Below are positions 14,515 to 21,933 of a stretch of 64,000 nt of DNA, piece by piece. The stretch lies in the NCBI GenBank assembly GCA_028689635.1, contig JAQVCU010000002.1, positions 20,570 to 84,569 on the forward strand, read 5' to 3'. Positions within the stretch are counted from its first letter, which is position 1. Each line of letters starts with the position of its first letter. The position numbers were made by a program, and so were the translations under genes. The notes under the pieces were generated by a model. It saw nothing but the letters and a program-made list of their open reading frames with translations. It did no database searches and was not told where the DNA came from. The DNA comes from Oscillospiraceae bacterium (GTDB lineage Bacteria; Bacillota; Clostridia; Oscillospirales; Ruminococcaceae).

Positions 14515-15519
14515 ATGAAAAAACTTTTGGCTTTGATCCTGGCTTTGGCGATGTGCGCCGGCATGGGCGTTATGGCCTTCGCCGCCGTCGAGGACATCGA
14601 GTTGGACGGGGAAACCGATTCTTATGAGATCGAGTTCCCGCTCGGCGATTACAAATTTGGCGATCTGAAAGTCACCGCCAAATGGGATGACGGCAAAAAA
14701 TATGTGGACAGCGTCGAGCTGAAAAAAGACGGCAACACCTATCTGGCCGTCGTCAACCTGGCCGACTACTACGGCACCGACGATCAGGATATCTCCGGTA
14801 CCCTCACCATCAAAAAGGGCTCCAGCAAAGCGAAGAACATCAATAGCGACGGCTGGGCCGAAGGCGAGTATGATGTGGACCTGAACATTGCCTGGAAATC
14901 TCAGGAAGGCCCGGACGACGAGGACTTTGAGGCGGATATCGACAAAGCCAGCGGCTATGTTATCGCCCCCGACAACGCCAACAAAAACGGCGTGTTCACC
15001 TTCACCGAGAACGATGCGCAGTATGAGGTCAAGCTGGCCAAGCAGGACGACCTGAACCTGTACTACACCAGCAAGCCCACTTCCGACATCAAAAAGCTGA
15101 TCGTGAAGAACAGCTCTGCCAGCATCGAAGTATTTTCTTTCCCTGGCAAACCCTCTTTCGATTTCTCCGGCACCCTGACCTATTATGTCAGCGACGGCGA
15201 TGAGAAATGGTATATGTACGAGTACGACGACGGCAACCTGAAGGAAGTTGGCAAGTACGACAAGGACGACGAGTGCTTCACCCTGAAGACCCGCACCCTG
15301 GGTACCTACCTCATTTCCGACAAGAAGCTGAAAGAGACCGCTTCCAGCGACGCTTCCAGCAGCGAGGACGCTTCCTCTTCTGGAAATTCCGGCACCGGTA
15401 GCGGCAGCGGTACCACCGGGAACCCCAGCACCGGCTCCAGCGATTTTGTCGGCGTGGCTGTGGCTCTGGGCGCCGTTTCTCTGGTAGCTGCAGGCGCAGT
15501 TGCCCTGAAAAGAAAATAA
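14515..15519 (+). CDS. Secreted surface protein with C-terminal NPxTG sorting-like signal (paralog 1)
   Basis: 334 aa; signal peptide MKKLLALILALAMCAGMGVMAFAA; Ser/Gly linker; NPSTGSSDFVGVAVALGAVSLVAAGAVALKRK; SD AAAGGAGG. Confidence 0.85.
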   Translation: MKKLLALILALAMCAGMGVMAFAAVEDIELDGETDSYEIEFPLGDYKFGDLKVTAKWDDGKKYVDSVELKKDGNTYLAVVNLADYYGTDDQDISGTLTIKKGSSKAKNINSDGWAEGEYDVDLNIAWKSQEGPDDEDFEADIDKASGYVIAPDNANKNGVFTFTENDAQYEVKLAKQDDLNLYYTSKPTSDIKKLIVKNSSASIEVFSFPGKPSFDFSGTLTYYVSDGDEKWYMYEYDDGNLKEVGKYDKDDECFTLKTRTLGTYLISDKKLKETASSDASSSEDASSSGNSGTGSGSGTTGNPSTGSSDFVGVAVALGAVSLVAAGAVALKRK

Positions 15520-15560
15520 TTTCCCCGCTGACCTTGGATAAAGGATAATAGCAGCACCCC

Positions 15561-15597
15561 AGCCCCGGCCACTCTCCAGGCCGGGGCTCTTTTTTTG
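15561..15597 (+). terminator. Rho-independent terminator after surface protein 1
   Basis: AGCCCCGGCC-ACTCTCCA-GGCCGGGGCT then CTTTTTTTGC. Confidence 0.9.
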
Positions 15598-15702
15598 CTT
15601 TTTTGCGCCGCCGGGGTCTGGAAAGATGAGGGGACGCCGGGAGAAAACGGAAAAAACCGGCGCAAAGTGGAAAAAACCTCCTGAAAAGGGAAAAAGCTTG
15701 CA

Positions 15703-15731
15703 TTGAGGGCGGCCCTCCGGCCCCGTATAAT
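15703..15731 (+). promoter_or_regulatory. Candidate sigma-A promoter of surface protein 2
   Basis: TTGAGG-17 nt-TATAAT. Confidence 0.55.
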
Positions 15732-15799
15732 GCATTTACCGGCGGAAGAACGGAGAGCTTCCGCGGAAAACAACATACCCGATACAGGAGGAAAACACA

Positions 15800-16768
15800 T
15801 TGAAAAAGACAATGTCTGTTCTTTTGGCCGCAGCCTTTGCCGCCACCAGCGGCCTGACTGCCTTTGCGCAGGGGGAAGAAGCGTATACCGTAAAACAGAA
15901 CCCCTGCGCTACCGTAGAGATCCCGCTGGGGCTGGAAGAGAGCGTGGATCTTGACGATCTGCGGGTTTACAACAAGCTCACCTCCGGCAAATCCGCCGTG
16001 GAATCCATCGAGCTGGACCGCGGGGAAAACGGCGAGGATTCCCTGATCCTCACCCTGAAATCCACCTATGGGGTGGAGACCGAGGAGATCGAGGGCGAGC
16101 TTCAGGTGAAGAAAAAGACTTCCGGCACCCTGGTCAAAACCTTTGCGGTGGATTTTGACGTCAACTGGGACAAAGCCGAGCTGAGCCAGGACGCCGAGCT
16201 TGCAGAGACGGTGGACAATGAGGCCCCGGTATACGAGTTCCATTCTTCCAACAAAAACGTGACCTTCTCCTTCGACGGCGTGGACGCCAGCTTTGAGGTT
16301 CGCCTGGAGGATCAGGACGCAGTAAACATGCATTATTCCACCAAGGCGGATAAGGCCATCACCCAGGCCAACGAGGACGCGGATCTCGCGTTCCTGAGCT
16401 TTGACGGCGCGCCCACGTTCGATTTCCGCGGCACCCTGACCTATTATGTGGAGGATACCGATAAGGACTGGTACCTCTATGAGATCGGCAGCAAAGGGGC
16501 CCTGAAAGAGAGCGGCGCGAAATACGACGAGGAAGAGGGCGCTTTCCTGCTGAAGACCAGCACACTGGGCAGCTATGTCCTCTCCGACACCAAGCTGAAA
16601 GCTTCCAGCGCCGCCGCCGGTGAAAATACCGATCAGGATGACGGCGAGGATAAGACCGAGAACAACCCCAACACCGGCTCGCGGGATTTTGTCGGGACCG
16701 CCGTGGCCCTGGGCGTGATCTCCCTTGTGGCCGCCGAAGCCCTTGCCGTAAAGAAAAACAGCAAATAA
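15800..16768 (+). CDS. Secreted surface protein with NPxTG sorting-like signal (paralog 2)
   Basis: 322 aa; signal peptide; NPNTGSRDFVGTAVALGVISLVAAEALAVKKNSK; clear similarity to neighbour. Confidence 0.85.
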   Translation: MKKTMSVLLAAAFAATSGLTAFAQGEEAYTVKQNPCATVEIPLGLEESVDLDDLRVYNKLTSGKSAVESIELDRGENGEDSLILTLKSTYGVETEEIEGELQVKKKTSGTLVKTFAVDFDVNWDKAELSQDAELAETVDNEAPVYEFHSSNKNVTFSFDGVDASFEVRLEDQDAVNMHYSTKADKAITQANEDADLAFLSFDGAPTFDFRGTLTYYVEDTDKDWYLYEIGSKGALKESGAKYDEEEGAFLLKTSTLGSYVLSDTKLKASSAAAGENTDQDDGEDKTENNPNTGSRDFVGTAVALGVISLVAAEALAVKKNSK

Positions 16769-16795
16769 GCCTTTTGGCGCGATCCCCAAAAAGAA

Positions 16796-16829
16796 CCGTT
16801 CGGCCCCTCTCCAGGCCGGACGGCTTTTT
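16796..16829 (+). terminator. Rho-independent terminator after surface protein 2
   Basis: CCGTTCGGCC ... GGCCGGACGG CTTTTT. Confidence 0.8.
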
Positions 16830-16874
16830 GCGCGTTTTCAGCTGTTCTTTTTGCGGGGAAGGAGCAATTATCCA

Positions 16875-16902
16875 TTGAATTTTATGGAATATCAGGTATA
16901 AT
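16875..16902 (+). promoter_or_regulatory. Candidate sigma-A promoter of surface protein 3
   Basis: TTGAAT-16 nt-TATAAT. Confidence 0.6.
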
Positions 16903-17004
16903 GATATTAACAGCCCGCCGGGAAAATCGTTCTCAGGCGGCGCGTCGAGCAAGGACGCCGCGGCAAAATTTTTGCCGCCGGCCTGCGAAGGAGAGGTATG
17001 ACAG

Positions 17005-17958
17005 ATGAAAAAGATACTGGGATTGGCTTTGGCGGCGGTGGCCTGCCTGACGACCTGCATCTGCGCCTGGGCGCTGGACCTGGAGAGCGTGGATGATTTT
17101 AACGATTACATCGTAGCGCCCGGCAGCATCATCGATCTGGAGATCGACGGAGATTTCAGCGATAAGGTGAACCAGCGCAACCAGATGCGCGTAAAAATGG
17201 ATTACGACGACGGGAAATCCCTGGTGAAAAGCGCCACGATCTACCGGGATGACGACGATGACTACTTTGTCCGCATCCGCCTGGTGGAGGCCGAGATCAT
17301 GACCCCAAAAGAACTGCAGGCCACGGTGATCGTATCCACCTCCACCAGCGAAGTGGAAGGATATATCGACACCCTGGTCGGCTATCGGGAGACCTATACC
17401 GACAAGGACAGCCGGTCGGTGAGCCTGGCGGTGGACAACGAGAGCCCGGTGATCGTTTTTGACGAGTATAACACCTTTGCCTCCCTGTATATCCGGGATC
17501 AGGGGGAGTTTCAGGTAAAGCTTACGGATCAGGACGCGGTGAACATGCGTTACAGCACCGATCTGATCAAAGAAGTGGAGCAGGCCCACGAGTACGCCAC
17601 CCTCCGTTACCTTACCTTTGAGGGCGCGCCGCAGTTCGACTATGTGGGTACGATGGAGATCTATGCCAACAAGGGTTCCTATCTGTACCAGTACGACGGG
17701 ACAAAGCTCGCTCAGGTCTCGACGACCTACAGCGGCGGCGCCCTGGTGTTTAAAACAGACGCTCTGGGCTGCTATGTGATCTCGGACCGTGCGCTGAAAA
17801 ATGTAGACGCCGCGGTGCAGCAGCCGGTGGAGACCCCTGCCGCCGAGAGCGGCGAGACGGGCGCCAATTCCGGGAAGGTGAACCCCGAGACCGGCGCCGG
17901 CGCTGCCGCGGCGGTGCTGCTGGCCGCTTTGGCTGGCGCTTCCCTTTTGAAAAAGTAA
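17005..17958 (+). CDS. Secreted surface protein with NPxTG sorting-like signal (paralog 3)
   Basis: 317 aa; signal peptide; NPETGAGAAAAVLLAALAGASLLKK; shared QVKLTDQDAVNMRYST and FEGAPQFDYVGT blocks. Confidence 0.83.
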   Translation: MKKILGLALAAVACLTTCICAWALDLESVDDFNDYIVAPGSIIDLEIDGDFSDKVNQRNQMRVKMDYDDGKSLVKSATIYRDDDDDYFVRIRLVEAEIMTPKELQATVIVSTSTSEVEGYIDTLVGYRETYTDKDSRSVSLAVDNESPVIVFDEYNTFASLYIRDQGEFQVKLTDQDAVNMRYSTDLIKEVEQAHEYATLRYLTFEGAPQFDYVGTMEIYANKGSYLYQYDGTKLAQVSTTYSGGALVFKTDALGCYVISDRALKNVDAAVQQPVETPAAESGETGANSGKVNPETGAGAAAAVLLAALAGASLLKK

Positions 17959-17976
17959 ATCTTGAAATGACCGCAG

Positions 17977-18016
17977 CAAAGCCTCGCCCGTGAGTGACTC
18001 TGGGGCGGGGCTTTGT
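17977..18016 (+). terminator. Terminator-like hairpin between surface proteins and pilus-like locus
   Basis: CAAAGCC(T)CGCCC...GGGCGGGGCTTTG; weak T-tract. Confidence 0.5.
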
Positions 18017-18068
18017 TGGGACAGGGGGCGTTGGCCCCTTTGCCCGGCGACGGAAAGGATGGTTCAAC

Positions 18069-19118
18069 ATGGCGGATACGGCAAAGGCTTTAACGCCCAG
18101 CGAGACGGCGGCGTTCTGTTCCCAGGTGACGCTGCTGCTGCGGGCTGGGATCCCTCTTTATGAGGGGATCTCCCTGCTTTTAGAGGACGCGGAGGACGAG
18201 AGGACCCGCAGTATCCTGCGGGTGATGACGGAGAAACTGGATGAAAACGCGCCGCTGTATCTGGCCCTGCGCGCCACGGGCGTATTCCCGGATTATATGG
18301 TGAGCATGGCGGAGATCGGGGCGGCCTCCGGCCGGCTGGAAGAAGTCATGAGCTCCCTTTCCGCTTATTACGAGCGTGAACAGGCCATGCAGGCCCGCAT
18401 CCGCAGCGCCGTGGCCTATCCGGTGCTGCTTTTCGCCATGATGTCGGCGGTGGTGATCCTGTTGGCGGCCAAGGTGCTGCCCATGTTCCGCCAGGTGTTG
18501 GAGCAGCTGGGCGGAGAAATGCCCGCCGCGGCCGGTGCGGTCATGCAGGTGGGAATGTCCGCCGGGACGGTGTTGGCCTGGGTGCTGCCCGGGCTGCTGG
18601 TGCTGATCCTGTTGGGGGCCCTGTGGGGCAAGACGGCGCCGGGCAAGGCCTTTTTCGGCCGCCTGGCCGCGACCTCGGTGTTCACCCGAAAGATCGCCTC
18701 CAAATCGGCGGCGGGGCGCTTTGCGTCCGCCATGTCCCTGATGCTGGCCAGCGGGATGGATACCGACGCGGCGCTGGAAATGGTGCCCGCGGTGCTGGAA
18801 AACCCCTATCTGGGCCGCAAGGTGGAGGAATGCCGCCGTATGATGAAGGAGGGCAGCTCCTTTTCCGAGGCGGTGGCAAAGGCCGGTATCTTTCCGGCGC
18901 TGTTTGCCAGAATGCTGACTGTCGGCGTGAAGACCGGCGCCACCGATACGGTGCTGGCAAAGCTGGCGGGCCTATATGAGGACGAGCTGGAAGAGGCTCT
19001 GGACCGGGCGGTCTCCCTGGTGGAGCCGCTTCTGATCGCGGTGCTTTCGGTGGTGGTCGGGGTCATCCTGATCTCGGTCATGCTTCCGCTGGTGGGCGTT
19101 ATGTCCTCCATCGGGTAA
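18069..19118 (+). CDS. Type II secretion/type IV pilus inner-membrane platform protein (GspF/PilC family)
   Basis: 349 aa; SYYEREQAMQARIRSAVAYPVLLFAM; duplicated T2SSF architecture; ...VEPLLIAVLSVVVGVILISVMLPLVGVMSSIG. Confidence 0.92.
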   Translation: MADTAKALTPSETAAFCSQVTLLLRAGIPLYEGISLLLEDAEDERTRSILRVMTEKLDENAPLYLALRATGVFPDYMVSMAEIGAASGRLEEVMSSLSAYYEREQAMQARIRSAVAYPVLLFAMMSAVVILLAAKVLPMFRQVLEQLGGEMPAAAGAVMQVGMSAGTVLAWVLPGLLVLILLGALWGKTAPGKAFFGRLAATSVFTRKIASKSAAGRFASAMSLMLASGMDTDAALEMVPAVLENPYLGRKVEECRRMMKEGSSFSEAVAKAGIFPALFARMLTVGVKTGATDTVLAKLAGLYEDELEEALDRAVSLVEPLLIAVLSVVVGVILISVMLPLVGVMSSIG

Positions 19119-19131
19119 AAGGAGGGGTTCT

Positions 19132-19470
19132 ATGCGTGCGTTCAAGGCGCCCCGCCGTTCCCTTTTTTCCCGCCAGACGGCGTTTTCCGCCCTCTTGTTC
19201 GCCGCGGTCCTGCTGGTGGCCCTGTGGGCAGTGGGGGGGATAAGCGGCCGCACCTCCCAGGAGCAGGAGGATATCCTGCGAAACGCGGTCAAACGGGCGG
19301 CGGTACAGTGTTACGCCATCGAAGGGGCTTATCCCTCCGGGGTCGACTACCTGGAGGAGCATTACGGCCTGGTGGTGGATCATGAAAAATACGAGGTCTT
19401 CTACAGCACCTTTGGCTCCAATATCATGCCGGATGTGGATGTGTTCCGGAAAGGCGGTGCCGCAGGATGA
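19132..19470 (+). CDS. Pseudopilin-like membrane-anchored hypothetical protein
   Basis: 112 aa; single N-terminal TM then small soluble domain; inside pilus-like operon. Confidence 0.6.
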   Translation: MRAFKAPRRSLFSRQTAFSALLFAAVLLVALWAVGGISGRTSQEQEDILRNAVKRAAVQCYAIEGAYPSGVDYLEEHYGLVVDHEKYEVFYSTFGSNIMPDVDVFRKGGAAG

Positions 19471-19940
19471 AGAAAAAACACGCGCTGGGGACGGAGTTCC
19501 TCTTCGCTTTGGCACTGCTGTGCGTTTTTGCCCTGTGCTCGGTGCTGCTGGTGACCATTGGCGGCGGCGTTTACCGGGATATCGTCGCGGGGATGGATGA
19601 AAACTATGCCCTGCGCACATCCCTTTCCTACGCGGCGACCAAAGTGCGCCAGGGAGACCGGGAGGGCGGCGTCAGCTTGCGGGATGCAAACGGCGTGGAG
19701 GCCTTGGTGCTGGAAGAACCTCTGGGGGATCGAACCTTCGAGACCTGGATCTATCACAAGGATGGAAAGCTGTGGGAGGTTTTTATGGAGCAAGGCGGTG
19801 AATTTGACCTCTCCGGCGGCATGGAGATCATGGAGATCGAGCGCTTTGCTTTTGATTGGGAAAACGGCTGGCTCACCTTTACGGCGGGGGACGGCGAAGC
19901 CGAGGAATCGCTGTCGGTTTTTCCGAGAACAGGAAGGTGA
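19467..19940 (+). CDS. DUF4860-like pseudopilin-like protein
   Basis: 157 aa; LGTEFLFALALLCVFALCSVLLVTIGGGVYRDI; ATGA overlap with preceding gene. Confidence 0.65.
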   Translation: MKKKHALGTEFLFALALLCVFALCSVLLVTIGGGVYRDIVAGMDENYALRTSLSYAATKVRQGDREGGVSLRDANGVEALVLEEPLGDRTFETWIYHKDGKLWEVFMEQGGEFDLSGGMEIMEIERFAFDWENGWLTFTAGDGEAEESLSVFPRTGR

Positions 19941-19944
19941 GCGG

Positions 19945-20370
19945 ATGAAACAGAGGACAAAAGATCCCATACGTTCCGGGGCTCCGTTGGCGGAGCTGAT
20001 CGTCGCCATCGGCGTTTTTGCCTTTGCCGGGGCGCTGGCCTTACAGCTGTTTGTTGGGGCCAGGTTCACGGCGGAAAAGGCCCGGGACATGACCCGGGCG
20101 GTGACGGTGGCCCAGACCCTGGCGGAACGCTTTAAAGCAGGAGAAGCCGGGGCGGGAGCTTTTTATTATGACAAAAACTGGGAAGAAACGGTGGCCCCCG
20201 ATCTTTTTGAGATGGAGCTGTCCGTAACGCAGGAGGACGGCCTGCGCCGGGGCGAGATCCTGGTGCGCAGAAGCCGGCCCTATCCCTTTTTGAAAAATGA
20301 CGGCGGCGCGGTGCTGCTTTACACCCTGGAAACGGCGTGTTATGACCAGGAAGGGGGCGGGGCGGCATGA
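19945..20370 (+). CDS. Prepilin-like protein with variant N-terminal signal (GAPLAELIVAIGVFAFAGALALQLF)
   Basis: 141 aa; motif resembles GFTLxE prepilin signal. Confidence 0.7.
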   Translation: MKQRTKDPIRSGAPLAELIVAIGVFAFAGALALQLFVGARFTAEKARDMTRAVTVAQTLAERFKAGEAGAGAFYYDKNWEETVAPDLFEMELSVTQEDGLRRGEILVRRSRPYPFLKNDGGAVLLYTLETACYDQEGGGAA

Positions 20371-20849
20371 ATGGGAAAGCCCATGTGGGCACCGCCACCA
20401 TCCTTACGGTTTTTATGGTGCTGTGCCTTTCTATTTTTGGGGTGCTTTCGGTGGTCTCCGCTCAGGCGGATCTAAAGCTCGCGCAGAAAACAGGGGAGGC
20501 GGTGCGGGATTACTACGCCGCAGACGCCCGCGGGGAGGAGGACCTTGCCCGGGTGGACGCCATCCTCAAAGCGCAGCTGGAGGAAACCCAGGGCCAGCCG
20601 GGGCTGGATGATCTGCAGCGGGCAAGCCTTAAGCTGACCCAGGCCGGTTTTACGGCGAACTTGGGGGAAGAGGGCCTGCTGATCTCCTGGTCGGAAGAGG
20701 CCGGGGAAGGGCAGACGCTGGAGATCGAGCTGGCGGCGCCCCTGTCGCCCTCATCTGTCCGCTGGGATATTCGCCGCTGGCAGCTTGTTCGGACGGCACA
20801 GGAGGAAGAAGAAGATTTCGGGGTCGATCTCTGGGACGGGGTCTCCTGA
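20367..20849 (+). CDS. Hypothetical membrane-anchored protein of pilus-like operon
   Basis: 160 aa; single N-terminal TM; ATGA overlap with preceding gene. Confidence 0.65.
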   Translation: MNGKAHVGTATILTVFMVLCLSIFGVLSVVSAQADLKLAQKTGEAVRDYYAADARGEEDLARVDAILKAQLEETQGQPGLDDLQRASLKLTQAGFTANLGEEGLLISWSEEAGEGQTLEIELAAPLSPSSVRWDIRRWQLVRTAQEEEEDFGVDLWDGVS

Positions 20850-20871
20850 AAAAGGAAGGAAGAGGCTGGGC

Positions 20872-21933
20872 GTGGAACTGGAAAAAATATTGGAAGAAGC
20901 AGTGGAAAGAGGCGCCTCCGATGTATTTATCGTAGCGGGCCTTCCCATCTCGTTCAAGATACAGGGGAATATCCTCCCCGTGGAGGAACGCCGCTTGCAG
21001 CCAGGGGATACCGAACTGCTGCTGCGCAGCATCTACGCGGCGGCGGACGGGCGGGACTATGCGGCTTTCCGGGCAAGCGGGGATGACGATTTTTCGTTTT
21101 CCATCAAATCGGTGGGCCGTTTTCGCGTCAACGCCTATCAGCAGCGGGGTTCTTTGGCCGCGGTGATCCGCGTGGTGCTCTTTGAGCTGCCAGATCCCAG
21201 CGAGTTGGGGATCCCGGAGGAGGTCATGGAGCTGGCGAAAAAGACCAAAGGGATGATCCTGGTCACCGGTTCCGCCGGAAGCGGCAAAAGCACCACCCTC
21301 TCCTGCCTGGTGGATCGGATCAATTCCACCCGCAACTGCCATGTGCTCACGTTGGAAGACCCCATCGAATATCTGCACCGGCACAAAAAAAGCATTGTCA
21401 GCCAGCGGGAGATCACGGTGGATACCAAAAGCTACAGTCTGGCCCTGCGCTCGGCCCTGCGCCAATCCCCCGATGTGATCCTGGTGGGGGAAATGCGCGA
21501 CCAGGCCACCATCGAGATCGCCCTGACGGCGGCGGAGACCGGCCATCTGGTGCTTTCCACCCTGCATACGGTGGGGGCTGCCAATACCATCGACCGCGTG
21601 ATCGACGCCTTTCCGCCGGAACAGCAGCACCAGGCGCGCATCCAGCTCTCCATGGTGCTGCAGGCGGTGGTTTCCCAGCAGCTGGTCCCATCCCCCGTCA
21701 AGGGGCGGATCCCCGCCTTTGAGATCATGATGGGTACCCCCGCCATCCGCAACATGATCCGGGACGCCAAGATCCATCAGATTGATTCGGTGATCTATTC
21801 CTCGGCGGATCAAAAAATGCGCACCATGGATTCCGATCTCCTGCGGCTGTACCGCCAGGGGGATATTTTGGCGGAGGACGCCCTGCTTTACAGCGCCAGC
21901 CCCGAGATGATGGCCAAAAACCTTCAGCGCTGA
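20872..21933 (+). CDS. PilT-like secretion/retraction ATPase
   Basis: Walker A GSAGSGKSTTL, VILVGEMRDQATIEIALTAAETGHLVLSTLHT; GTG start at 20872 judged likely. Confidence 0.93.
   Translation: MELEKILEEAVERGASDVFIVAGLPISFKIQGNILPVEERRLQPGDTELLLRSIYAAADGRDYAAFRASGDDDFSFSIKSVGRFRVNAYQQRGSLAAVIRVVLFELPDPSELGIPEEVMELAKKTKGMILVTGSAGSGKSTTLSCLVDRINSTRNCHVLTLEDPIEYLHRHKKSIVSQREITVDTKSYSLALRSALRQSPDVILVGEMRDQATIEIALTAAETGHLVLSTLHTVGAANTIDRVIDAFPPEQQHQARIQLSMVLQAVVSQQLVPSPVKGRIPAFEIMMGTPAIRNMIRDAKIHQIDSVIYSSADQKMRTMDSDLLRLYRQGDILAEDALLYSASPEMMAKNLQR

Follow-up and report, generated by a model that had tools for sequence, protein, structure and literature searches.

Organization of the locus

Six collinear genes on the plus strand span positions 18069-21933 of the window (the whole stretch of 64,000 nucleotides that was analysed), as determined from open reading frames together with domain and profile searches. 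The genes and their flanking signals are as follows.

17975-18017, plus strand: terminator-like hairpin in the gap between the last NPxTG gene and pilC (fold -30.9 kcal/mol, z -5.2)
18069-19118, plus strand: pilC, PilC/GspF-like platform protein of 349 aa and conserved first gene of the operon; PF00482 158 bits across two repeats
19132-19470, plus strand: orf2, pilin-like protein of 112 aa; 51-sequence alignment, AF2 pLDDT 88.7, weak PDB matches
19467-19940, plus strand: DUF4860 protein of 157 aa; PF16152 88 bits, AF2 pLDDT 93.6
19945-20370, plus strand: orf4, GspI/PilV-like prepilin with G-1/E+5 (SG↓APLAE); weak GspI/XpsI/PilV matches
20367-20849, plus strand: orf5, possibly PilX/GspK-like, with an N-in TM helix and a YYAADxxA motif; 38-sequence alignment
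20872-21933, plus strand: pilT, PilT-family ATPase with a GTG start; TIGR01420 420 bits
21960-21997, plus strand: intrinsic terminator at the operon end (fold -32.4 kcal/mol, z -9.8)

The first-pass annotation had proposed a platform, four small single-TM proteins and a PilT-type ATPase, and the six genes with their PF00482 and TIGR01420 matches bear this out; a single hydrophobic segment lies at the start of each of the four small ORFs. Of the filament superfamily, the operon thus holds a platform (T2SSF, 158 bits) and a T2SSE-family ATPase. Profile searches of the organism's own genome found no other T2SSE, T2SSF, Peptidase_A24 or PilM_2 match on the contig carrying the operon.

Upstream, at 14515-17958, three tandem genes encode secreted proteins, mutually 24-39% identical, with NPxTG-like ends (Rumino_NPXTG below cut-off). 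The suggestion that these proteins belong with the operon did not hold: the terminator-like hairpin separates them from pilC, and no NPxTG-protein homologue was found beside other operon copies. A scan of the window for the sortase motif TL[ST]TC gave no match. A role in anti-phage defence was likewise rejected, given only weak ATPase cross-matches.

Conservation and distribution

Gene order was identical in every operon copy examined (about 50). The comparison drew on the GTDB loci L008-L019 except L010, ten of them complete on their contig and one truncated within pilC, together with loci of 39 other Oscillospirales genomes, a few of which end at contig edges (e.g. L107, L082, L087/L088). 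The conserved neighbourhood that was to be sought across Oscillospirales is therefore present, and the recurrence of this six-gene arrangement in other species' loci indicates that the operon goes beyond chance. Its marker, DUF4860, was detected in 40 of 197 Oscillospirales genomes and in 44 of the 393 genomes of the class sampled; the carriers are gut Clostridia. A literature search returned no paper mentioning DUF4860 and, among the titles and abstracts listed, no account of this pilus-like module. Together, the data support the notion of a discrete, conserved and under-described pilus-like module, apparently a surface machine, as the first-pass annotation had anticipated.

Two loci depart from this arrangement. 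In G010 (L106) five operon genes are present and pilT is missing, with neither a T2SSE ATPase nor a transglutaminase found in the genome, and in L010, from a Blautia MAG, an orphan operon-type pilT is the sole operon gene of that stretch. The operon may also be multi-copy, since three DUF4860 matches lie on three contigs of G520 in the class sample. Among the flanking genes, a gene of one similarity cluster occurs near the operon in L098, L109, L113 and two more loci (a sortase by Pfam in the scanned example, L098), lying 14 bp downstream of the operon in L109 and L113. Two other flanking families recur, one in L078 and 13 other loci (BTAD regulator domain in the scanned example, L078) and one in L099 and 8 others (PAS/GGDEF/HD domains in the scanned example, L099).

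The small proteins resemble pilins

Orf2 carries an N-in TM helix and, across its 51-sequence alignment, the conserved stretches CYAxEGxYPxxxxYLxExYG and MPDITV. Its AF2 model comprises a helix (14-64) and a small globular domain, and that of the DUF4860 protein a long N-terminal helix and an eight-strand domain; as modelled, both proteins show pilin-like anatomy. Foldseek against the PDB gave no match at E<=0.001 for either protein, the weak rows including type IV pilins and EpsI:EpsJ. For the DUF4860 protein, the highest-probability row among the matches listed was the type IV-like pilin TTHA1219 (E>0.001).

In the window, orf4 reads ...IRSG↓APLAELIVAIGVFAF, which fits the prepilin motif, position -1 being G and position +5 being E. 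Among its homologues E+5 is retained in 50 of 51 and G-1 in 14 of 51. G-1 occurs in 4 of 21 genomes without and in 9 of 19 with a peptidase; the association sought between the two traits did not reach significance (P 0.09). N_methyl (PF07963) was detected in 7 of 46 orf4 members, and several type IV pilins are among the weak PDB-profile matches. PilX_N matches, all weak, in 3 of 38 orf5 members hint that orf5 is possibly PilX/GspK-like. The G-1/E+5 motif recognized by A24 peptidases was not found in orf2, the DUF4860 protein or orf5, and some of these could therefore be stationary membrane proteins.

The operon ATPase belongs to the PilT family

The ATPase scored 420 bits against the PilT/PilU family profile TIGR01420, for which the cut-off is 319. 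A GGAAGGAAGAGG stretch precedes the GTG at 20872, which is most likely the start of pilT. In the window's PilT we found the signatures ASDVF and GSAGSGKST, with intact catalytic Glu and His boxes. Relative to 22 other PilTs, a set drawn from a single similarity scan and unevenly sampled, the operon PilTs share the signatures ASDxF and GxAGSGKS, with F replacing H of ASDxH in 46 of 49 and A replacing T in the Walker A motif in 47 of 49, and they carry K for R at position 29. All 49 retain the catalytic Glu and the second His. In the tree, support for the cluster of operon PilTs is 98/92 with one Defluviitaleaceae T4P PilT counted in and 96/91 with it left out; because one orphan falls inside the cluster, the label operon PilT does not denote strictly one clade.

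A secreted transglutaminase-like protein accompanies the operon

The gene directly upstream of pilC encodes, in 39 of 52 loci, a secreted, mostly lipid-anchored-looking transglutaminase-like protein. This family is present in 38 of 40 DUF4860 genomes versus 1 of 157 genomes without DUF4860 (P 4.6e-37, a nominal value, the genomes being related by descent and not independent). The two operon genomes without a match are G010 and G042, the operon of the latter lying on a 3.5-kb contig. Unlinked copies occur in G000, G025, G053, G111 and G124. The partner in the window's own genome, G000, is such a stand-alone secreted gene (L117:1372-2205 on contig C103), scoring 366 bits against the family profile. 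A Cys-His-Asp triad (C187/H219/D248) is invariant in 36 transglutaminase-like sequences, PF01841 was above cut-off in all five members scanned, and at least 23 of 39 proteins have a lipobox; the proteins carry their own export signals. The secreted transglutaminase-like protein is thus a seventh component of the system, which the first-pass annotation had missed.

PilB and prepilin peptidase in operon genomes

The annotation had noted that PilB, PilD and PilM/N/O were not nearby. This is correct for the neighbourhood as regards PilB, PilD and PilM, but not for the organism, which encodes all of them on another contig, C102. Two further T2SSE ATPases above the family cut-off, two T2SSF repeats of another PilC and one A24 peptidase lie there, in the order pilB-pilT-pilC-pilA-pilD-pilM-pilN-pilO, a conventional T4P locus (L005), in which pilN and pilO are named by position and general look only. 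The pilB reaches the contig end and its first part looks unlike PilB, perhaps a misjoin. Of the two possibilities offered earlier, namely that PilT acts alone or that the missing parts are elsewhere, the latter is the case in this organism; 'PilT alone' is a live option in many species, since in these no second ATPase of the superfamily accompanies the operon PilT.

In the survey of the 40 operon genomes (headed INDEPENDENCE), a PilB-type ATPase over 400 bits was present in 15 and an A24 peptidase in 19, and neither was detected in 21, where absence of A24 means no PF01478 match and a peptidase too divergent for that profile is possible. Leaving out G059, which ends at a contig edge, and G010, which has no pilT, 19 of these 21 carry the operon PilT. 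No other T2SSE ATPase accompanies it in 17 of the 19, if a 25-bit partial match within a 767-aa reading frame of G152 is disregarded as noise; G058 and G116 each encode a second T2SSE ATPase. Assembly gaps are not the explanation, as the peptidase-less carrier G138 consists of one contig and G141 of seven. In the GTDB genomes G205 and G208, too, just one T2SSE exceeded the cut-off and A24 gave no match. Full-length PilM_2 matches occur mainly in PilB genomes, and among the 21 peptidase-less genomes only in G048. On a tree of 48 operon PilTs, A24 presence changed at least 12 times and PilB presence at least 13 times. We take the operon machine to be independent of T4P in many hosts.

Interpretation

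The T4P locus on C102 raises the question of whether the operon is an accessory of that pilus, supplying an additional PilC, minor pilins and another PilT that modify the C102 filament, with PilD cutting orf4. The full locus itself, the G-1/E+5 retained by the window's orf4 and the PilB found in 15 of 40 operon genomes agree with such a role. It is nevertheless disfavoured by the 19 operon-PilT genomes without both PilB and A24 and by an operon that stays while A24/PilB presence changes 12-13 times on the PilT tree, and the operon brings a platform of its own and PilTs that form a separate cluster; we regard the accessory role as quite unlikely. The search for pilB and pilD, which could have exposed the operon as an obvious satellite, accordingly returned a complete T4P locus but not that relationship, because the 19 related genomes have no detected PilB or A24 and the operon neighbourhood is conserved. 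A decaying remnant of a T4P locus would fit the reduced gene set, the G010 operon without pilT and without the transglutaminase, and the orphan pilT of L010. An order conserved across families, catalytic Glu and second His intact in 49 of 49 PilTs and the spread of the marker (40 of 197 genomes in one sample, 44 of 393 in the other) make this extremely improbable.

The near-perfect co-occurrence with the transglutaminase, often encoded directly upstream of pilC, and the weak GspI likeness of orf4 would suit T2SS-like secretion, in which a pseudopilus-like stalk would transport a substrate, or the transglutaminase-like protein itself, across the cell wall. This is unlikely, though it deserves mention, as no GspE was found and the proteins, having export signals of their own, need no further motor to arrive on the outside of the membrane. 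A ComG-like DNA-uptake pilus with a swapped motor has the layout in its favour, a platform followed by several small pilin-like proteins. However, 17 of the operon-PilT genomes contain just the one T2SSE ATPase, 19 lack an A24 (ComC-type) peptidase, and the transglutaminase-like partner is, to our knowledge, no known Com part; we give this alternative little credence.

Based on sequence comparison, we consider it somewhat probable that the operon encodes a self-contained, reduced and divergent relative of type 4 filament machines with its own motor, platform and subunits, a reading against which the availability of PilD and PilB in the window's own genome has to be counted. In such a machine, the PilT-type hexamer would dock beneath PilC and turn it, and the four pilin-like proteins would assemble into a short stalk or a tip complex like that of GspH-I-J-K or ComGD-GG, the E+5-bearing orf4 being its core. 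The subunits may work uncleaved, because most orf4 copies have no G-1 and no peptidase was found in many of the genomes. Rather than building a long pilus, the motor might move a short stalk in and out like a piston or drive both directions like CpaF, and the transglutaminase-like protein would act outside the membrane, on the stalk or on envelope material handled by it. More tentatively, a PilT-clade motor alone could drive a peptidase-independent type 4 filament branch with uncleaved subunits and a secreted transglutaminase-like enzyme. In a large share of its hosts the module is without two of the four universal type 4 filament components, and it keeps E+5 although no enzyme that would cut there was detected. 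The module therefore allows one to ask directly if assembly can be powered by a PilT-type motor and if pilin-like subunits can function without cleavage.

Comparison with known systems

Four components are described as common to all type 4 filaments and as enough to assemble them (PMC10790768); assembly by a PilB-type ATPase is treated as essential in all families, PilT serving only in retraction (PMC6668835, PMC6916266). As two superfamily-defining features, an ATPase in the PilB role and an A24 peptidase, were not found with the operon, we take it as a divergent offshoot and not as a member of the superfamily. The type IVa pilus (PilB/PilT/PilC/PilD/PilMNO), whose PilT is a retraction motor dispensable for piliation (PMC6916266), shares PilC and PilT homologues with the operon but differs in that no PilB, PilD or PilM lies beside the latter. 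The T2SS pseudopilus (GspF, GspG-K) shares the platform and a pilin-like set; in contrast, the operon has no GspE-type ATPase and a monoderm setting.

In Tad, the motor CpaF is a single ATPase for both extension and retraction (PMC11300603), but it belongs to another ATPase clade and works with a platform pair, TadB/TadC, and its own peptidase. In E. cellulosolvens, which also carries the operon, two additional T2SSE ATPases lie close to A24 genes and may belong to Tad. With its four minor pilins, Com has been called the simplest T4F known (PMC10790768). The Com pilus (ComGA-GG, ComC) shares with the operon the monoderm host, a short operon, one platform, several small pilin-like proteins and one ATPase; the motor, however, is an extension ATPase in Com and a PilT-clade ATPase in the operon, and where Com relies on the prepilin peptidase ComC, operon genomes often have no peptidase, and the operon has a transglutaminase-like partner. 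CpaF for 'one motor' and Com for 'few parts' are thus the closest parallels, both with other ATPase types and a peptidase.
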